Below, piece by piece: positions 2,694-9,102 of a stretch of DNA of 64,000 nt. The notes below the pieces were generated by a model. It saw only the letters and a program-made list of their open reading frames with translations. It had not been told where the DNA came from and did no database searches. The translations under genes were made by a program, and so were the position numbers. Source of the stretch: Thermaerobacter marianensis DSM 12885. Lineage in GTDB: Bacteria; Bacillota; Sulfobacillia; Thermaerobacterales; Thermaerobacteraceae. The stretch covers positions 2,108,001 to 2,172,000 of the forward strand of contig NC_014831.1 in NCBI RefSeq assembly GCF_000184705.1, given 5' to 3'. Position 1 is the stretch's first letter. Each line of letters opens with the position of its first letter.

Positions 2694-4676
2694 TCACGCC
2701 CGGGTGAACCACCCCGGGTGAAAGGGGCGGCCCGGGCGCCATCGCCCGTCGCCCGGCACGCCCACGGCGGCGCCGGCGCCCGCCGAACCCGGCGCGGGGC
2801 CGGCGGCGCCGCCGGAGCCGTCCCCCAGGGTACCGCGGTGGTGCTGGGGAACCCGGGCCCCAGGGCCGCTACGGCCGCCCGCACCGCCCGTACCCGTGGC
2901 GATGGCGGGGTCTCCCTGGCTCGCAACACCGCGGCGGCCGGGGTCGCCGGCGTCGCCGGCGGGTGCATCCTCCCGCCGGGTCGCGACGGCGCCCTGGCCA
3001 CCGTCACCGCCTGGACGGCTGTGGACGATGACCACGCCGTCCCGGCGCTCCGGACCGTCCGTCCCGGGCGCAGCCCCGGGCTCCGGCGACGCCGTGGTCT
3101 CGCCCCACTTCCCCGGGTTCATCAGGTCCAGGGGGTCCAAGGCCCTCTTGATCTCGCGGATGACCTTCAGCGCCGGGCCGAACTCGTCCTGCAGGAGCGG
3201 CAGGAGCTTCAGGCCCGTGCCGTGCAGGCACTCCATGTTGCCCCCACGGGCCTGGGCCATGCGGAGAAGATCATGCATCAGCGCCTCCATGGCCGCGGCA
3301 TCTTCGGGGGTCCATTCCGCGGCCCAGGGGCCCGCTTCGTCCGCCGCGACCCCCGCCGCCGTGCACCCCTCCTCCGGCCCACCAGCGCCCCCGGACCCGC
3401 GGGCCGCCGTGCCTGCCGGGGCGGCGGCGGTGGCCGGGTACGCTGCGCTGACCAGCAGGGAGAAGACCTCCGGCCGGCCCCACAGCCCCGTCTCCCCAGC
3501 CCGGAAGCGCGGGTCCGCCGCGATGCGGGCCAGCGCCTCCCGGCGGTAGGGGATCACCTGGCTCGCCGGGAGGGCCAGGTTGATGTAGTCGAAGGCCCCC
3601 TGCTGCCAGCGGCGCCGGGCGTCGCGGGCCTGCAGGATGGGCAGGGCGAACTGCTCGGCGATCTCGTGGCGCCGCTCCCAGAACGCGCGGGCCGGTTCGT
3701 CCCCCAGGTCGCGGGCGCCGAACTGCTTGACGATCCGGTCGGCCGCCGCGGCCCGGCCCCGGGCCTCCTCGGCCACCCCGAAGAAGCCCAGGTGGAGCAG
3801 CCCGGTGCGGCCCAGGTCGTCCTCGTAGCCGGGCTCCAGCTCCACGGCGGCGGGCACGTCGTCGGTGAAGTCCAGCAGGTCCGGGATGACCCCGGCCCGC
3901 CACAGGGCCCGCACCGCCTCGAAGCCCGGCTCGAAGCCGCGGAAGCGGTAGCTGCGGAAGAGCATGACCTCCGGCGCACCCACGGCCCGGATCCAGGCCC
4001 GGGTGACGATGCCCAGGGTGCCCTGGCTGCCGGCGAACAGGGCGCGCAGGTCGGGGCCCGCGGCCGGCTTGGGGACGGGCCGGGTCCGCACCACCTGCCC
4101 GTCGGGCAGCACCGCCTCGATGGCCACCACCTGCTGCCCCATGCTGCCCCAGCGGCCGGCCAGATAGCCGACGCCGTCGGTCCCGATGGCGCCGCCGACG
4201 GTGGCGATGCCCACGCTCCACGGGTCGTGGGCCAGGGCCAGGCCGTGGCGGCGCAGGGCGGCGTCGACGGCCGCCAGGGTGGCGCCGGCGCCGGCCTCCG
4301 CCAGCAAGTCGTCGGGATGGACCACGATGTCGTCAAGGCGCGTCAGGTCGACGACGACAGCCGGGTGCTGGGGCACCGCAGAACCCATCACCCCGGTGCC
4401 ACCGCCCCGGGGCACCAGGGGGATGCGGTGCCGGGCGGCCCAGAGGACCAGCTGGCGCACGTCCTCCACGTCGCCGGGCCGCACCACCGCCAGGGGCCGC
4501 CGGGCGCTCCGGCCGGTTCGTCCAAGGCGGTAGCCGCCGGTGAAGTCCATGGCGGCCCATTCCAGGTCGTGGGGATCTACCGAGACGTGGTGGGTCCCCA
4601 CCAGGTCGCAAAGTTCCTTCAGCAGCGGCTCGGGTAAGGCGACAGGCTCGGTCACGAGGGAACCCTCATCGTCCAT
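2694..4676 (-). CDS. FAD-linked oxidase, GlcD / D-lactate dehydrogenase type
   Basis: A flavin oxidase of the FAD_binding_4 family oxidising a 2-hydroxy acid such as glycolate or D-lactate; the substrate cannot be fixed from sequence. The FAD-anchoring segment PRGGGTGVMG is at residues 89-98, followed by VGGAIGTDGVG and SQGTLGIVT, and the FAD-oxidase C domain ends in the usual DPLDLMNPGKWG near residue 525. After that comes a 135-residue Gly/Ala/Pro-rich tail with no family counterpart. The ATG at 4676 is chosen for the GGAGGG six bases upstream and the MDDEGSLVTEP start; the frame stays open further upstream but only as noise. Confidence 0.85.
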   Translation of the reverse strand: MDDEGSLVTEPVALPEPLLKELCDLVGTHHVSVDPHDLEWAAMDFTGGYRLGRTGRSARRPLAVVRPGDVEDVRQLVLWAARHRIPLVPRGGGTGVMGSAVPQHPAVVVDLTRLDDIVVHPDDLLAEAGAGATLAAVDAALRRHGLALAHDPWSVGIATVGGAIGTDGVGYLAGRWGSMGQQVVAIEAVLPDGQVVRTRPVPKPAAGPDLRALFAGSQGTLGIVTRAWIRAVGAPEVMLFRSYRFRGFEPGFEAVRALWRAGVIPDLLDFTDDVPAAVELEPGYEDDLGRTGLLHLGFFGVAEEARGRAAAADRIVKQFGARDLGDEPARAFWERRHEIAEQFALPILQARDARRRWQQGAFDYINLALPASQVIPYRREALARIAADPRFRAGETGLWGRPEVFSLLVSAAYPATAAAPAGTAARGSGGAGGPEEGCTAAGVAADEAGPWAAEWTPEDAAAMEALMHDLLRMAQARGGNMECLHGTGLKLLPLLQDEFGPALKVIREIKRALDPLDLMNPGKWGETTASPEPGAAPGTDGPERRDGVVIVHSRPGGDGGQGAVATRREDAPAGDAGDPGRRGVASQGDPAIATGTGGAGGRSGPGARVPQHHRGTLGDGSGGAAGPAPGSAGAGAAVGVPGDGRWRPGRPFHPGWFTRA

Positions 4677-5289: not shown

Positions 5290-6339
5290 GTGGACGGTCC
5301 CGTTGCGGACGACGTTCCCCACGAGGTTTCCCGCGCAGCAGCAGCGGCGAAGCGGTCTTTCCGGGTGGCCTTCCAGGGCGAGCGCGGCGCCTTCAGCGAG
5401 GCAGCGGTCTTGACGTACTTCGGCCCGTGGGCCGAACCCCTGCCCTGCCCCACCTTTCCCGATGTGTTCGACCGGCTGGCGTCGGGCAGTGCCAGCGCCG
5501 CCATGGTACCCGTGGAAAACTCGTACGCCGGCGACGTGGGGGAGACGTACGACCTTCTGCGGCGGCACGCGGTGCGGATCTGCGGAGAACTCCAGCTCCC
5601 CGTCCGCCACTGCCTGCTGGCCCTGCCCGGCACCCGACTCGGCGACCTGCGGGTGGTGCGGTCCCACCCCCAGGCCCTGGCCCAGTGCCGGGAGTTCCTC
5701 CACCGCCACGGCCTCATCGCCGAGCCGGCCTACGATACCGCCGCCGCCGCCCGCCAGGTGGCCGAAGCCGGCCGCCGGGACCTGGGGGCCATCGCCTCCC
5801 ACCAGGCCGCCCTCCACTACGGTCTCGCAGTGCTGGCCGAAGACATTCAGGACTCGGCCGGCAACGTGACCCGGTTCTACCACCTGGAACGGGACGAACC
5901 GGCCGGCACGGCGCCACCGGCGTCGGCGGACCCGTCCGAGGTGCGCCATCCGCCTCGACCGCAAGACCTGCCAGCGGCCAGCCCGCGACGCGGCCATGAT
6001 GGCCCGGAACCGCCCGGAGCCCCCCGCCCCAATGCGAGCTCCCGTCTCGTCCCGGCCGGGGTCAAGACCTCCCTGCTCTTCGTCGGAGAAGATCGTCCCG
6101 GCGCTCTCTACCGCTGCCTGGGCGCCTTCGCCCGGCGGGAGATCAACCTGACGAAGCTGACGGCCCGGCCGGAACCAGGTGGGTCCTGGCAGTACATGTT
6201 CTTCGCAGACCTCGAGGGGAGCCTTGAGGAGCCGCGGGTCCAGGAGGCGATCGACGAGCTGCGACGTCAGGCAACCTACGTCCGCATCATGGGCAGCTAC
6301 CGCGTGTGGCAGGTCCATGATGCTGACGCCGGGCATTGA
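5290..6339 (+). CDS. pheA: Prephenate dehydratase with ACT domain
   Basis: Converts prephenate to phenylpyruvate in phenylalanine synthesis. The dehydratase domain shows GERGAFSEAA, VPVENSYAGDV and the catalytic TRF motif in NVTRFYHLER; the C-terminal ACT domain begins near KTSLLFVGEDRPGALY. The two are joined by a roughly 55-residue Pro/Ala-rich linker that is longer than usual. In the ACT domain the phenylalanine-binding GALV and ESRP motifs read GALY and TARP, so feedback control may differ. The GTG at 5290 is used because AGGGAGG lies seven bases upstream; a GTG 195 bases earlier adds only low-complexity sequence. It appears to be a single-gene unit. Confidence 0.9.
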   Translation: MDGPVADDVPHEVSRAAAAAKRSFRVAFQGERGAFSEAAVLTYFGPWAEPLPCPTFPDVFDRLASGSASAAMVPVENSYAGDVGETYDLLRRHAVRICGELQLPVRHCLLALPGTRLGDLRVVRSHPQALAQCREFLHRHGLIAEPAYDTAAAARQVAEAGRRDLGAIASHQAALHYGLAVLAEDIQDSAGNVTRFYHLERDEPAGTAPPASADPSEVRHPPRPQDLPAASPRRGHDGPEPPGAPRPNASSRLVPAGVKTSLLFVGEDRPGALYRCLGAFARREINLTKLTARPEPGGSWQYMFFADLEGSLEEPRVQEAIDELRRQATYVRIMGSYRVWQVHDADAGH

Positions 6340-6691
6340 CTGGGAACATTCATCGGAGCCGTCCTCGAATCGACATTGGATGGGGTGGACGCTGGGGACC
6401 GCCTGGCGGTCCTCCCCGAAGACGTTGATCATACCGGCCGCCAGGACCGTGCCGATGTCTTTCATGGGTCGGCGCCTGCACCAGGGTCTCAAGCTGCTGG
6501 TGACAGGCCTCGAGCTCGCGGCAGACGGCTTCGAGCTGATCCACCAGAAAGACCATGCGGCGAGCCCACAGCGCCATGGTGGCCCTGCCAGTCGGCTGCC
6601 ACACCTTGCTTAACTGCCCCGTATGCCTCGCGTCCTCGAAAACAAACTCAGCACACCTGCGATGACATTCCGCCCGCCAACCCGCGGACAA
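6340..6691 (-). pseudogene. Decayed IS110-like transposase fragment
   Basis: Minus-strand remains split over two frames. One frame reads a helical stretch (ARRMVFLVDQLEAVCRELE and beyond) like the linker of IS110-family transposases; the next frame continues with IGTVLAAGMINVFG, like the IGPxxAAxLLAEIGD signature of the Transposase_20 domain. A frameshift lies between them and there is no N-terminal DEDD domain or intact end. It adjoins the AT-richer scar to the right. The match rests on short motifs only. Confidence 0.4.
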
Positions 6692-6768
6692 CGGCCCGTC
6701 ACGCCCACGCCCCTTCGGTTACTCTCACGGTGCACTCCTATAGAAATCCCGCAGGTGGCGATTTCTCC

Positions 6769-7557
6769 TCATCTCACCCGCCGTCGTACCCACCAGAGTG
6801 ATCCGACAATAACTGCCAGCGCACCCGCTCCAAATCCGGCCCATACCGGATTCGGCATAGCATGCTCGGGTTCTGAACTAACAGTTACACCAGTAGGCCC
6901 ACCAACAGCACCCTTATCAGAAGACGACTGTATTCTCTGTCGAACCTCACTCACCAACCGCTCCATATCCACGACTTGCGACGAGGGAAGATTATACAAG
7001 GTTATGTCACGCATAGACGCAAACCGGCTGTTGCCACGGCTGTCGACCCCCACAAGACCAACTATTCTATATCCCTCATCATAGACCAATCGCATTTGCC
7101 TAATCATACCATTGGCTACAAGCATCCGTTGAGCCTCTCGTACGTCATTCGCAAACCGCGAGTCACTTGATACCCGAATAATCTTCCACTCATCACCGAC
7201 CCTTTGTGCCCATGCGATGCCAACCGGATTTGCATTCACGTAAATTGGGAAAATATGGAGGCTTGGATAGGGCTTAATGATGTCATCCACGTCCGTTGAT
7301 CCGTCGATAACACCTTGCTCAGAGACATAGTGGACGCGAAAGCCCTCGCCGAATGTTACGTTATCCGCATCACTCAGTTTTGTAAGCCCAAAATGTTGCG
7401 GTTCGCTTGCCAACACAACCCGCACATATGGGATGTCGTCCTTAATGCCCTGGACAACATCAGGCGATGCGTCAGCGTAGGACTTATTAACAACTGAAAA
7501 AACTACCACTGCCACCAGCACAGAAACTCGAGCGACAACTGAGGTTGACCGACACAT
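6769..7557 (-). CDS. Secreted, membrane-anchored protein of unknown function
   Basis: A 262-residue protein with an N-terminal signal peptide (hydrophobic residues about 8-24, likely cut after SYADA), an exported domain of about 200 residues, and a C-terminal anchor (PNPVWAGFGAGALAVIVGS, then WWVRRRVR). The exported part is not recognised; it contains a possible Asp-rich segment around GSTDVDDIIKPYPS. Its start codon lies two bases beyond the TGA of the upstream peptidase gene, and its AGGAGG overlaps that stop, so the two are translationally linked. The gene is clearly AT-richer than its neighbours, which suggests foreign origin. A partner, inhibitor or processing target of the peptidase is a guess from linkage. 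Confidence 0.65.
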   Translation of the reverse strand: MCRSTSVVARVSVLVAVVVFSVVNKSYADASPDVVQGIKDDIPYVRVVLASEPQHFGLTKLSDADNVTFGEGFRVHYVSEQGVIDGSTDVDDIIKPYPSLHIFPIYVNANPVGIAWAQRVGDEWKIIRVSSDSRFANDVREAQRMLVANGMIRQMRLVYDEGYRIVGLVGVDSRGNSRFASMRDITLYNLPSSQVVDMERLVSEVRQRIQSSSDKGAVGGPTGVTVSSEPEHAMPNPVWAGFGAGALAVIVGSLWWVRRRVR

Positions 7558-7561
7558 ATTT

Positions 7562-8281
7562 TCACCTCCTGGTATTGTTCATAAAGGTCCATTTCCAGTA
7601 AAAGCTTTCATTAGAAACAAAGTCGCTGTATAGCATCCAGTTCCACATAGCCGACGTGGGCCAAGGATCCATATATGATACGTTTTTATAAACGCCATCT
7701 TCGTAGTATCCATATATTACAAAGTCGTGGCCACTACTCTTGCCCCTCCATTGGATACTCGCCTTGATGGGCTGATTTTGGTCAATATCAATCTTAACGT
7801 CTGTCCACGGTATACTGCGATCCCGTGCGGTCGTACTGATACCAGCGACGTTGAGAGATTTAATTTCGTCGGAGTAATACGCAGCGACATCGGGACAGGT
7901 AGACAGCCCTGTCGTGCCCGCCACGATTGCACACTGAGTTGGGGCGCTCCCTAAGACATAATATGCAATCGCCCTTGTAGTTGCTGCCCAACACCATTTA
8001 GATTTTTCTTGTTTCATTCCTGTAATTGGTAAATACCGAGACGTAGCAGCCTGAACCCGCAAGAAGGCCGCCACCTGAGGGTACCGGGAGCCAAGCTCGT
8101 CGGCCAGCTGCTGGACCCGCTGCCGAGCCGTGACCGCGTCCGGCTGGGCGAAGATGCTGCGGACCTGGGCGGCCACCGCCGGCTGGGCGTGCTTGGGGAC
8201 CCGAGCCAGGAGGTTGCGCATGAAGTGGACCCGGCACCGCTGCCAACTCGCTCCCGTCAACACCTCGGCGATGGCCCGCAA
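7562..8281 (-). CDS. Papain-like cysteine peptidase (C70/C39-like) fused to IS256 fragment
   Basis: A 239-residue chimeric frame. Residues 1 to about 79 are the middle of an IS256-family transposase (VLTGASWQRCRVHFMRN, then ARVPK). From about residue 80 it is a papain-like peptidase of the AvrRpt2 type: Gln91 and Cys97 in KQEKSKWCWAAT, His185 in GHDFVIYGYY and Asp205 in YMDPWP form the expected catalytic set. Relatives are normally exported; this one has lost its own N-terminus, probably including a signal peptide, when the IS sequence arrived. Whether the fusion is translated is uncertain. The peptidase part is AT-rich and the IS part GC-rich, so the junction near 8041 is visible in composition. 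Confidence 0.65.
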   Translation of the reverse strand: MRAIAEVLTGASWQRCRVHFMRNLLARVPKHAQPAVAAQVRSIFAQPDAVTARQRVQQLADELGSRYPQVAAFLRVQAATSRYLPITGMKQEKSKWCWAATTRAIAYYVLGSAPTQCAIVAGTTGLSTCPDVAAYYSDEIKSLNVAGISTTARDRSIPWTDVKIDIDQNQPIKASIQWRGKSSGHDFVIYGYYEDGVYKNVSYMDPWPTSAMWNWMLYSDFVSNESFYWKWTFMNNTRR

Positions 8282-8700: not shown

Positions 8701-8733
8701 TCACTGACTTTGACGATTCAGAAGTAGGGGAAC
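8425..8733. repeat. Two diverged copies of an IS-end-like sequence
   Basis: GAGCCTGTTTCA occurs at 8425-8436 and again at 8692-8703, each followed within 30 bases by a related ...TCAGAA...GGAAC tail (ending near 8455 and 8733). The second copy abuts the C-terminal end of the IS1182-like transposase, so this is probably the 3' end of that element, and the first copy marks a second, otherwise deleted insertion. About 255 bases separate them. Confidence 0.45.
8621..8650. repeat. 14-base tandem repeat
   Basis: ACTATCATGTGGAT is present at 8621-8634 and 8637-8650, a 16-base period. It lies in AT-rich sequence between two IS remnants. Replication slippage or a trace of an excised element are both possible. 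Confidence 0.6.
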
Positions 8734-9102
8734 GTAGCGGGTCGAATCGGCCATGTCCCATGGGCTGACGGTCAGGATTGCGCCGGCCAGTGTCCCGGTC
8801 GTTCCCCTTCTAGGCCAACCCCGTCGCCGTACACCAAAGGGCACAGGTGCAGATCGCCCCCTTACCCTCCGCCGCAGCTTCAGCAAGTTGTGGGTCAAAC
8901 AGAGTAGCTTCCACTCGTGGTCACACGCCGCCAGATCCCGTTGGAGAAAGCGGTTGGCTCCTGGCACCGCCTTGATCTGCTCGAACACCGGCTCGACGGT
9001 CTGGAGCAACACGAGGAGTGGCTGGCCTCCCGACGCGACTTCGGATCCGAGTCGCTGGCCACGCTCCAACCACTCTCCGAAGGGGGTGAAACCGTTCGAC
9101 AC
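8701..9102 (-). pseudogene. IS1182-like transposase C-terminal remnant
   Basis: The stretch from about 8998 to 8870 encodes VEPVFEQIKAVPGANRF, then LQRDLAACDHEWKLLCLTHN and LLKL, the conserved C-terminal block of IS1182-type DDE transposases. Upstream of it the frame is not recognisable, and the N-terminal DDE residues are absent, so the gene is truncated. The stop codon lies next to the GAGCCTGTTTCA end repeat. GC content is higher than in the AT-rich scar immediately beside it. Confidence 0.7.

Follow-up and report, generated by a model that had tools for sequence, protein, structure and literature searches.

A widespread gene pair encoding a secreted papain-like peptidase and a membrane-anchored partner, with a decayed copy in Thermaerobacter marianensis

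In the accessible parts of the published descriptions, the gene downstream of that for staphopain encodes staphostatin, a small inhibitor that is cytoplasmic and lipocalin-like (PMC7863939, PMC3462683), and export is described for some Bti inhibitors, two of which are likely lipoproteins (PMC3462683). The papain-like toxin-immunity pair Cpe1-Cpi1 combines, according to the portion of its description that is available, a related peptidase fold with an adjacent partner gene and co-evolution of the two (PMC12136450). A further enzyme with a regulatory companion is SleB, whose partner YpeB has PepSY domains that may hold the enzyme inactive (PMC13393411, PMC6660665).

The locus described here likewise places a papain-like peptidase gene before a second gene, the product of which carries a signal peptide and a C-terminal membrane anchor. 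It lies in the window, by which is meant the whole 64,000-nucleotide stretch analysed, at positions 2108001-2172000 of the complete 2,844,696-bp genome of Thermaerobacter marianensis DSM 12885. Searches of the open-access full-text literature found no description of the pair. The value of the finding lies in the intact pair, which is widespread, and not in the local fusion of the peptidase with an IS256 fragment.

The locus and the intact pair in other genomes

Both genes are encoded on the minus strand of an AT-rich island (46-52% GC, against about 70-75% in the surroundings) that is flanked by the genes for prephenate dehydratase and isocitrate lyase and lies amid transposase remnants. The peptidase domain, for which a papain-like fold is predicted, occupies 7562-8055 (-) within a fused open reading frame of 239 amino acids (7562-8281, (-)). 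Its catalytic residues are intact, with Gln at 8011-8009, Cys at 7993-7991, His at 7729-7727 and Asp at 7669-7667 (-). The partner gene (6769-7557, (-)) encodes 262 amino acids, and its ATG (7555-7557) is 4 nt from the peptidase stop codon, TGA 7562-7564. The ribosome-binding site of the partner, AGGAGG at 7565-7570 (-), coincides with the two final codons of the peptidase and is spaced 7 nt from the ATG. From its sequence and a predicted model, the partner comprises a signal peptide, a two-unit alpha/beta ectodomain (core residues 31-215; 6913-7467, (-)), a disordered linker and a C-terminal transmembrane helix (about residues 238-258; 6784-6846, (-)) followed by a cytoplasmic RRR. A preliminary description of this DNA had noted the AT-rich gene pair, the AGGAGG at the end of the peptidase, the Cys/His/Asp set and the signal peptide and anchor of the partner; all are borne out, and the catalytic glutamine is intact as well.

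Just upstream of the pair, at 8701-9102 (-), is a remnant of the C-terminus of an IS1182-family transposase (NCBIfam E 4e-6). A frame at 6350-6691 (-) without a Pfam match is common to the window and genome G003 (L015 4156-4932, (-)), where an IS256-family transposase lies opposite it; this common frame may be a transposase remnant.

The preliminary description had also proposed an undescribed secreted protease-partner pair, which it would have given up had the genes never been adjacent or the partner stood only beside unrelated genes. Intact homologous pairs were sought and found, with signal peptides on the intact peptidases. A scan of 84,980 genomes with the peptidase motif alone yielded 205 relatives, from which 80 loci were kept. 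A full-length partner of 250-333 amino acids, with signal peptide and C-terminal anchor, lies directly downstream in 75 of these 80 loci and starts between -43 and +30 nt from the peptidase stop. Viewed from the partner, 37 of 38 genes in 24 whole genomes directly follow a peptidase gene, the exception being a second partner in tandem; the unpaired peptidases in these genomes are mostly weak relatives. The pair is therefore a conserved one, and its partner, though common, has no family model.

Relatives recovered with a strict single motif are mostly from Actinomycetota, and nearly all of those examined carry the pair. Since it occurs across three bacterial phyla (Actinomycetota, Bacillota and Bacteroidota), the pair represents more than chance. 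In records of plasmids from Streptomyces, Embleya and Bifidobacterium, too, the peptidase is followed directly by a protein of 260-300 amino acids with signal peptide and anchor. Several divergent copies of the pair are found per genome, and the distances among peptidases follow those among partners with a mirror-tree r of 0.96 over 81 pairs (permutations ≤ 0.15), a value that shared host ancestry inflates.

Among the exceptional loci, the partner lies across an assembly gap (L068) or is split in two frames (L043), or the locus stops at a contig end (L059). The Bacteroidales locus (L069) has a partner homologue without an anchor, recognised at E 1.1e-9 by a profile built without it. In Amycolatopsis xylanica (L041), the peptidase is accompanied by an 81-amino-acid protein (3489-3734) that has just a signal peptide and the anchor, joined by a short spacer, and looks as if its ectodomain had been deleted. 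In Paenibacillus massiliensis, two tandem partner genes follow one peptidase (L044 3490-4278 and the following ORF). A 179-amino-acid peptidase neighbour in Azospirillum was rejected as a partner, having no demonstrable homology (hhalign 0.14). No partner relatives were found in plasmids by tblastn or in viral contigs, the sequences being too diverged for such searches.

Among 61 relatives, the partner is confined to the genus Thermaerobacter. Three species of this genus (G000, G001 and G002) also carry a second, high-GC partner paralogue, about 29% identical and without a peptidase (L016 6931-7719, L017 8259-8999 and L018 8327-9067, respectively). The orphan paralogue is intact, with dN/dS of about 0.45 between diverged copies; the window partner is only weakly constrained, two methods giving dN/dS of 0.46-0.87. 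In L016 the orphan gene is immediately preceded by genes for a helix-turn-helix protein and a ParE/RelE-like toxin (6231-6829), and in G002 the orphan lies near a zinc carboxypeptidase gene.

Peptidase, partner and the proposed split zymogen

The peptidase part of the fused reading frame matches Peptidase_C70 (E 1.6e-11; 44.7 bits, cut-off 19) and Peptidase_C39_2 (E 1.9e-8; 35.4 bits, cut-off 24). The catalytic Q, C and H are present in all 81 relatives and the D in 77 of the 81. Sequence searches of solved structures gave only weak matches for the peptidase, and its predicted model (pLDDT 96.6) was placed closest to the staphopains by both Foldseek and VIA-align (Z 17.8-18.4); C39 peptidases came next, and structures of papain-like toxins ranked lower. 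Intact peptidase ORFs consist of a signal peptide and the peptidase domain only; a delivery domain for T6SS or CDI is absent. The WCW active-site motif is separated from the signal-peptide core by a median of 22 residues; because the signal peptide thus runs almost straight into the active site, the peptidase is without a propeptide.

No Pfam or NCBIfam family was found above cut-off for the partner (the window partner and a set of 35 partners having been scanned against Pfam), and Staphopain_pro (PF14731) was not among the Pfam matches of these proteins. Several members gave weak C-terminal matches to sortase- or anchor-type models, and the C-terminal anchor and long disordered linker are conserved among partners. 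By profile comparison, the Thermaerobacter and Bacillota partners match two actinobacterial groups (E 1e-11 and 2.8e-9), which match each other, and a direct match (E 1e-7) links the window partner to a partner from a Clostridia MAG. When the Thermaerobacter and Bacillota profile was run against 5,323 open segments, it found, beyond its own members, the Bacteroidales partner first and next actinobacterial ORFs directly downstream of peptidases. Judged by these profile matches, the partner groups are homologous to each other.

The AlphaFold2 model of the partner has a confident core at residues 31-215 (pLDDT mostly about 80-95) and a helix at 247-260. Foldseek returned no match for it below E 0.01, and sequence searches of solved structures gave no meaningful relative. 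The best VIA-align match of the model is prostaphopain B (1x9y) at residues 41-191 (Z 7.4, 132 residues aligned, rmsd 4.7), the second being YpmB (Z 4.6). Residues 41-191 lie in the propeptide half of 1x9y, whose mature part is covered by the match of the peptidase model, which starts at residue 223. A Z of 7.4 alone is weak and within reach of unrelated folds; it is persuasive here because the match is to the propeptide of the very family that the neighbouring peptidase resembles, and because the sequence profiles agree.

A profile of five staphopain propeptides (A11) aligned by hhalign to that of the Thermaerobacter and Bacillota partners (A7) with a score of 48.8 (P 1e-6), in register over GEPFKIYKFN...YYFPV in the propeptide and GEGFRVHYV...IFPI in the window. 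Control scores did not exceed 17.0 for 150 column shuffles and were 13.6 for the reversed profile, leaving out a 5-column artefact; the few shuffle scores near 130 were set aside as numerical artefacts, the one inspected having aligned just 5 columns, with a summed probability of 0. With HMMER, the link between partner and staphopain propeptide was marginal (E 0.01 to 3.5). The Streptomyces partners alone did not match the propeptide profile and are linked to it only through the other partner groups. A stand-alone staphopain-propeptide match in Bacilli (L120) was discarded as a chance match to an unrelated, cytosolic-looking protein.

Since the partner resembles the staphopain propeptide in predicted fold and in profile, and the peptidase is without a propeptide, we consider it reasonably probable that the pair is a split zymogen, that is, a secreted protease whose propeptide-like inhibitor or folding helper is tethered to the membrane. 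The first gene would specify a small papain-fold cysteine peptidase that is exported by its signal peptide and, in contrast to staphopains and papains, has no propeptide. The second gene, sharing one transcript with the first and probably translated in coupling with it, would yield the propeptide-like protein, which would be held at the outer face of the membrane by its C-terminal helix. The anchored partner may then bind the emerging peptidase, aiding its folding and/or keeping it inactive next to the producer cell, until the enzyme is set free in active form, either by release or by cutting of the linker. Counting against the split zymogen are the Amycolatopsis locus, in which only signal peptide and anchor are left of the partner, and the retention in Thermaerobacter of partner genes without a functional peptidase.

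The main rival is a pair of antibacterial toxin and immunity protein, in which the secreted peptidase would attack surface proteins or the cell wall of competitors and the anchored partner would protect the producer, a purpose compatible with the same molecular action. Adjacent, coupled and co-evolving genes in several divergent copies are in keeping with it, as is the match of the peptidase model to the Cpe1/Cpi1 toxin-immunity structure 9l5u (Z 15.4) and to a CDI toxin; orphan partner genes, which persist without a peptidase, would in Thermaerobacter be orphan immunity genes. However, the peptidase has only a signal peptide, with neither a delivery domain nor secretion-system genes seen, and both orphan and paired partners in Thermaerobacter are under weak constraint only (dN/dS about 0.45-0.9). 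Nor would one expect an immunity protein as such to look like a propeptide, although the two are compatible. This purpose is regarded as unlikely. A PADLOC search gave no match of the partner to a known defence component.

Still less likely, and in our view improbable, is a partner that serves as tether, receptor or substrate, holding the peptidase at the surface or being cleaved by it, and does not inhibit. The conserved anchor and long linker would suit such a role, but neither a propeptide-like fold nor a propeptide-free peptidase is predicted by it, and the Bacteroidales homologue is without an anchor.

Were the split zymogen true, the pair would be a clear instance of a propeptide that acts in trans while fixed to the membrane. 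It would also give staphopain zymogens an evolutionary origin and supply protease-inhibitor pairs ready for testing in harmless Streptomyces. A more tentative suggestion, which could well prove wrong, is that these pairs form a widespread class of split zymogens, in which membrane-anchored trans propeptides serve as folding helper and safety catch at the outer membrane face, sharing one origin with the single-chain staphopains by fusion or splitting.

Decay of the pair in Thermaerobacter

Residues 2-91 of the 239-amino-acid frame match Transposase_mut/IS256 above the Pfam cut-off (E 3e-18). Only positions 200-292 of the 338 in the profile are covered, and the transposase ORF is incomplete. The corresponding DNA, a 224-bp internal fragment at 8056-8279 (-), is 92%, 88% and 86% identical over 221-224 bp to other IS256 transposase copies in the genome, and insertion-sequence ends are absent from it. 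Its junctions are exact: homology to the sister genome G002 runs up to 8055 and resumes at about 8280. As the equivalent stretch of G002 holds the peptidase start codon and signal peptide, the fragment in the window has substituted the export signal.

The window and G002 peptidases differ at 11 positions, spread 4, 4 and 3 over the three codon positions with no third-position excess. The fused ORF was judged to be a pseudogene and the local copy a decaying relic; the fusion is ordinary decay, not rewiring. The earlier reading of a damaged peptidase with its N-terminus replaced by a transposase segment is thus upheld and its limits made exact, while that of a captured or rewired one finds no support, the fragment being a headless internal piece and the remaining sequence showing no third-position excess. 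That the IS256 fragment instead rewired the peptidase, making the fused ORF a working novel protein of the cytoplasm, is highly improbable: the frame of the fused ORF is open and its catalytic residues are intact, but it begins in a headless transposase piece at an assigned TTG start with no clear ribosome-binding site, its differences from the sister copy are even across codon positions, and the peptidase gene is frameshifted or absent in sister species. In terms of the split zymogen, the window would contain a decayed Thermaerobacter copy in which the fragment has cost the peptidase its start and signal peptide.

The G002 peptidase has kept its signal peptide but is disrupted by a frameshift as well as an in-frame stop, G001 has the partner and no peptidase, and the G003 partner is split by IS256-family copies. 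The partners of G000 and G002 are 97% identical, with dS of about 0.05 against about 0.59 for the neighbouring pheA; on this synonymous divergence, the stretch was probably exchanged recently between Thermaerobacter species. Beside the pair in G002 are group II intron D1-D4 segments (Rfam RF02001, RF01998; L013 7303-7594, (-)), and L013 also has a Transposase-2 RNA at 3425-3494.

Comparison with described systems

In SpeB-Spi (C10) and the Bacteroides C10 proteases with Bfi/Bti, as far as the accessible text of the reports goes, a papain-like protease gene is co-transcribed with a cognate inhibitor, a likeness to the present pair. C10 proteases have a propeptide of their own, unlike the peptidase here, and the Bacteroides C10 inhibitors (116-138 amino acids) are, as far as described in those parts, of another family and fold than the partner. 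Cpe1, by the available portion of its description, is delivered by T6SS or CDI, cleaves GyrB/ParE inside cells and has immunity proteins of 79-239 amino acids, whereas the peptidase here has a signal peptide only and its partner would be anchored outside. The accessible parts of these reports do not describe a membrane-anchored propeptide-like partner for staphopain-staphostatin, SpeB-Spi, the Bacteroides inhibitors or Cpe1-Cpi1 (PMC3462683, PMC7863939, PMC12136450). SleB differs in being a lytic enzyme of the spore cortex and no papain-fold peptidase, and the fold relation of the partner to YpmB is weak.

Peptidase_C70 (AvrRpt2) and Peptidase_C39_2, for which the Pfam cut-offs are passed, share the catalytic residues of the peptidase. 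AvrRpt2 is injected by type III secretion; the intact relatives have a signal peptide directly before the peptidase and, in bacteria such as Streptomyces, Paenibacillus and Bifidobacterium, combine export with a partner gene, unlike a type III effector.

The closest comparison is with the staphopains (C47), whose papain fold is nearest to the peptidase model and whose propeptide (Staphopain_pro, PF14731) is nearest to the predicted fold of the partner. There too, a protease gene is followed by a second, regulatory gene. Staphostatin is small and cytoplasmic, whereas the partner has 250-333 amino acids with signal peptide and anchor and is not of the staphostatin type. Staphopain carries its propeptide in cis; here, the propeptide-like protein would be a separate, exported and membrane-anchored one.
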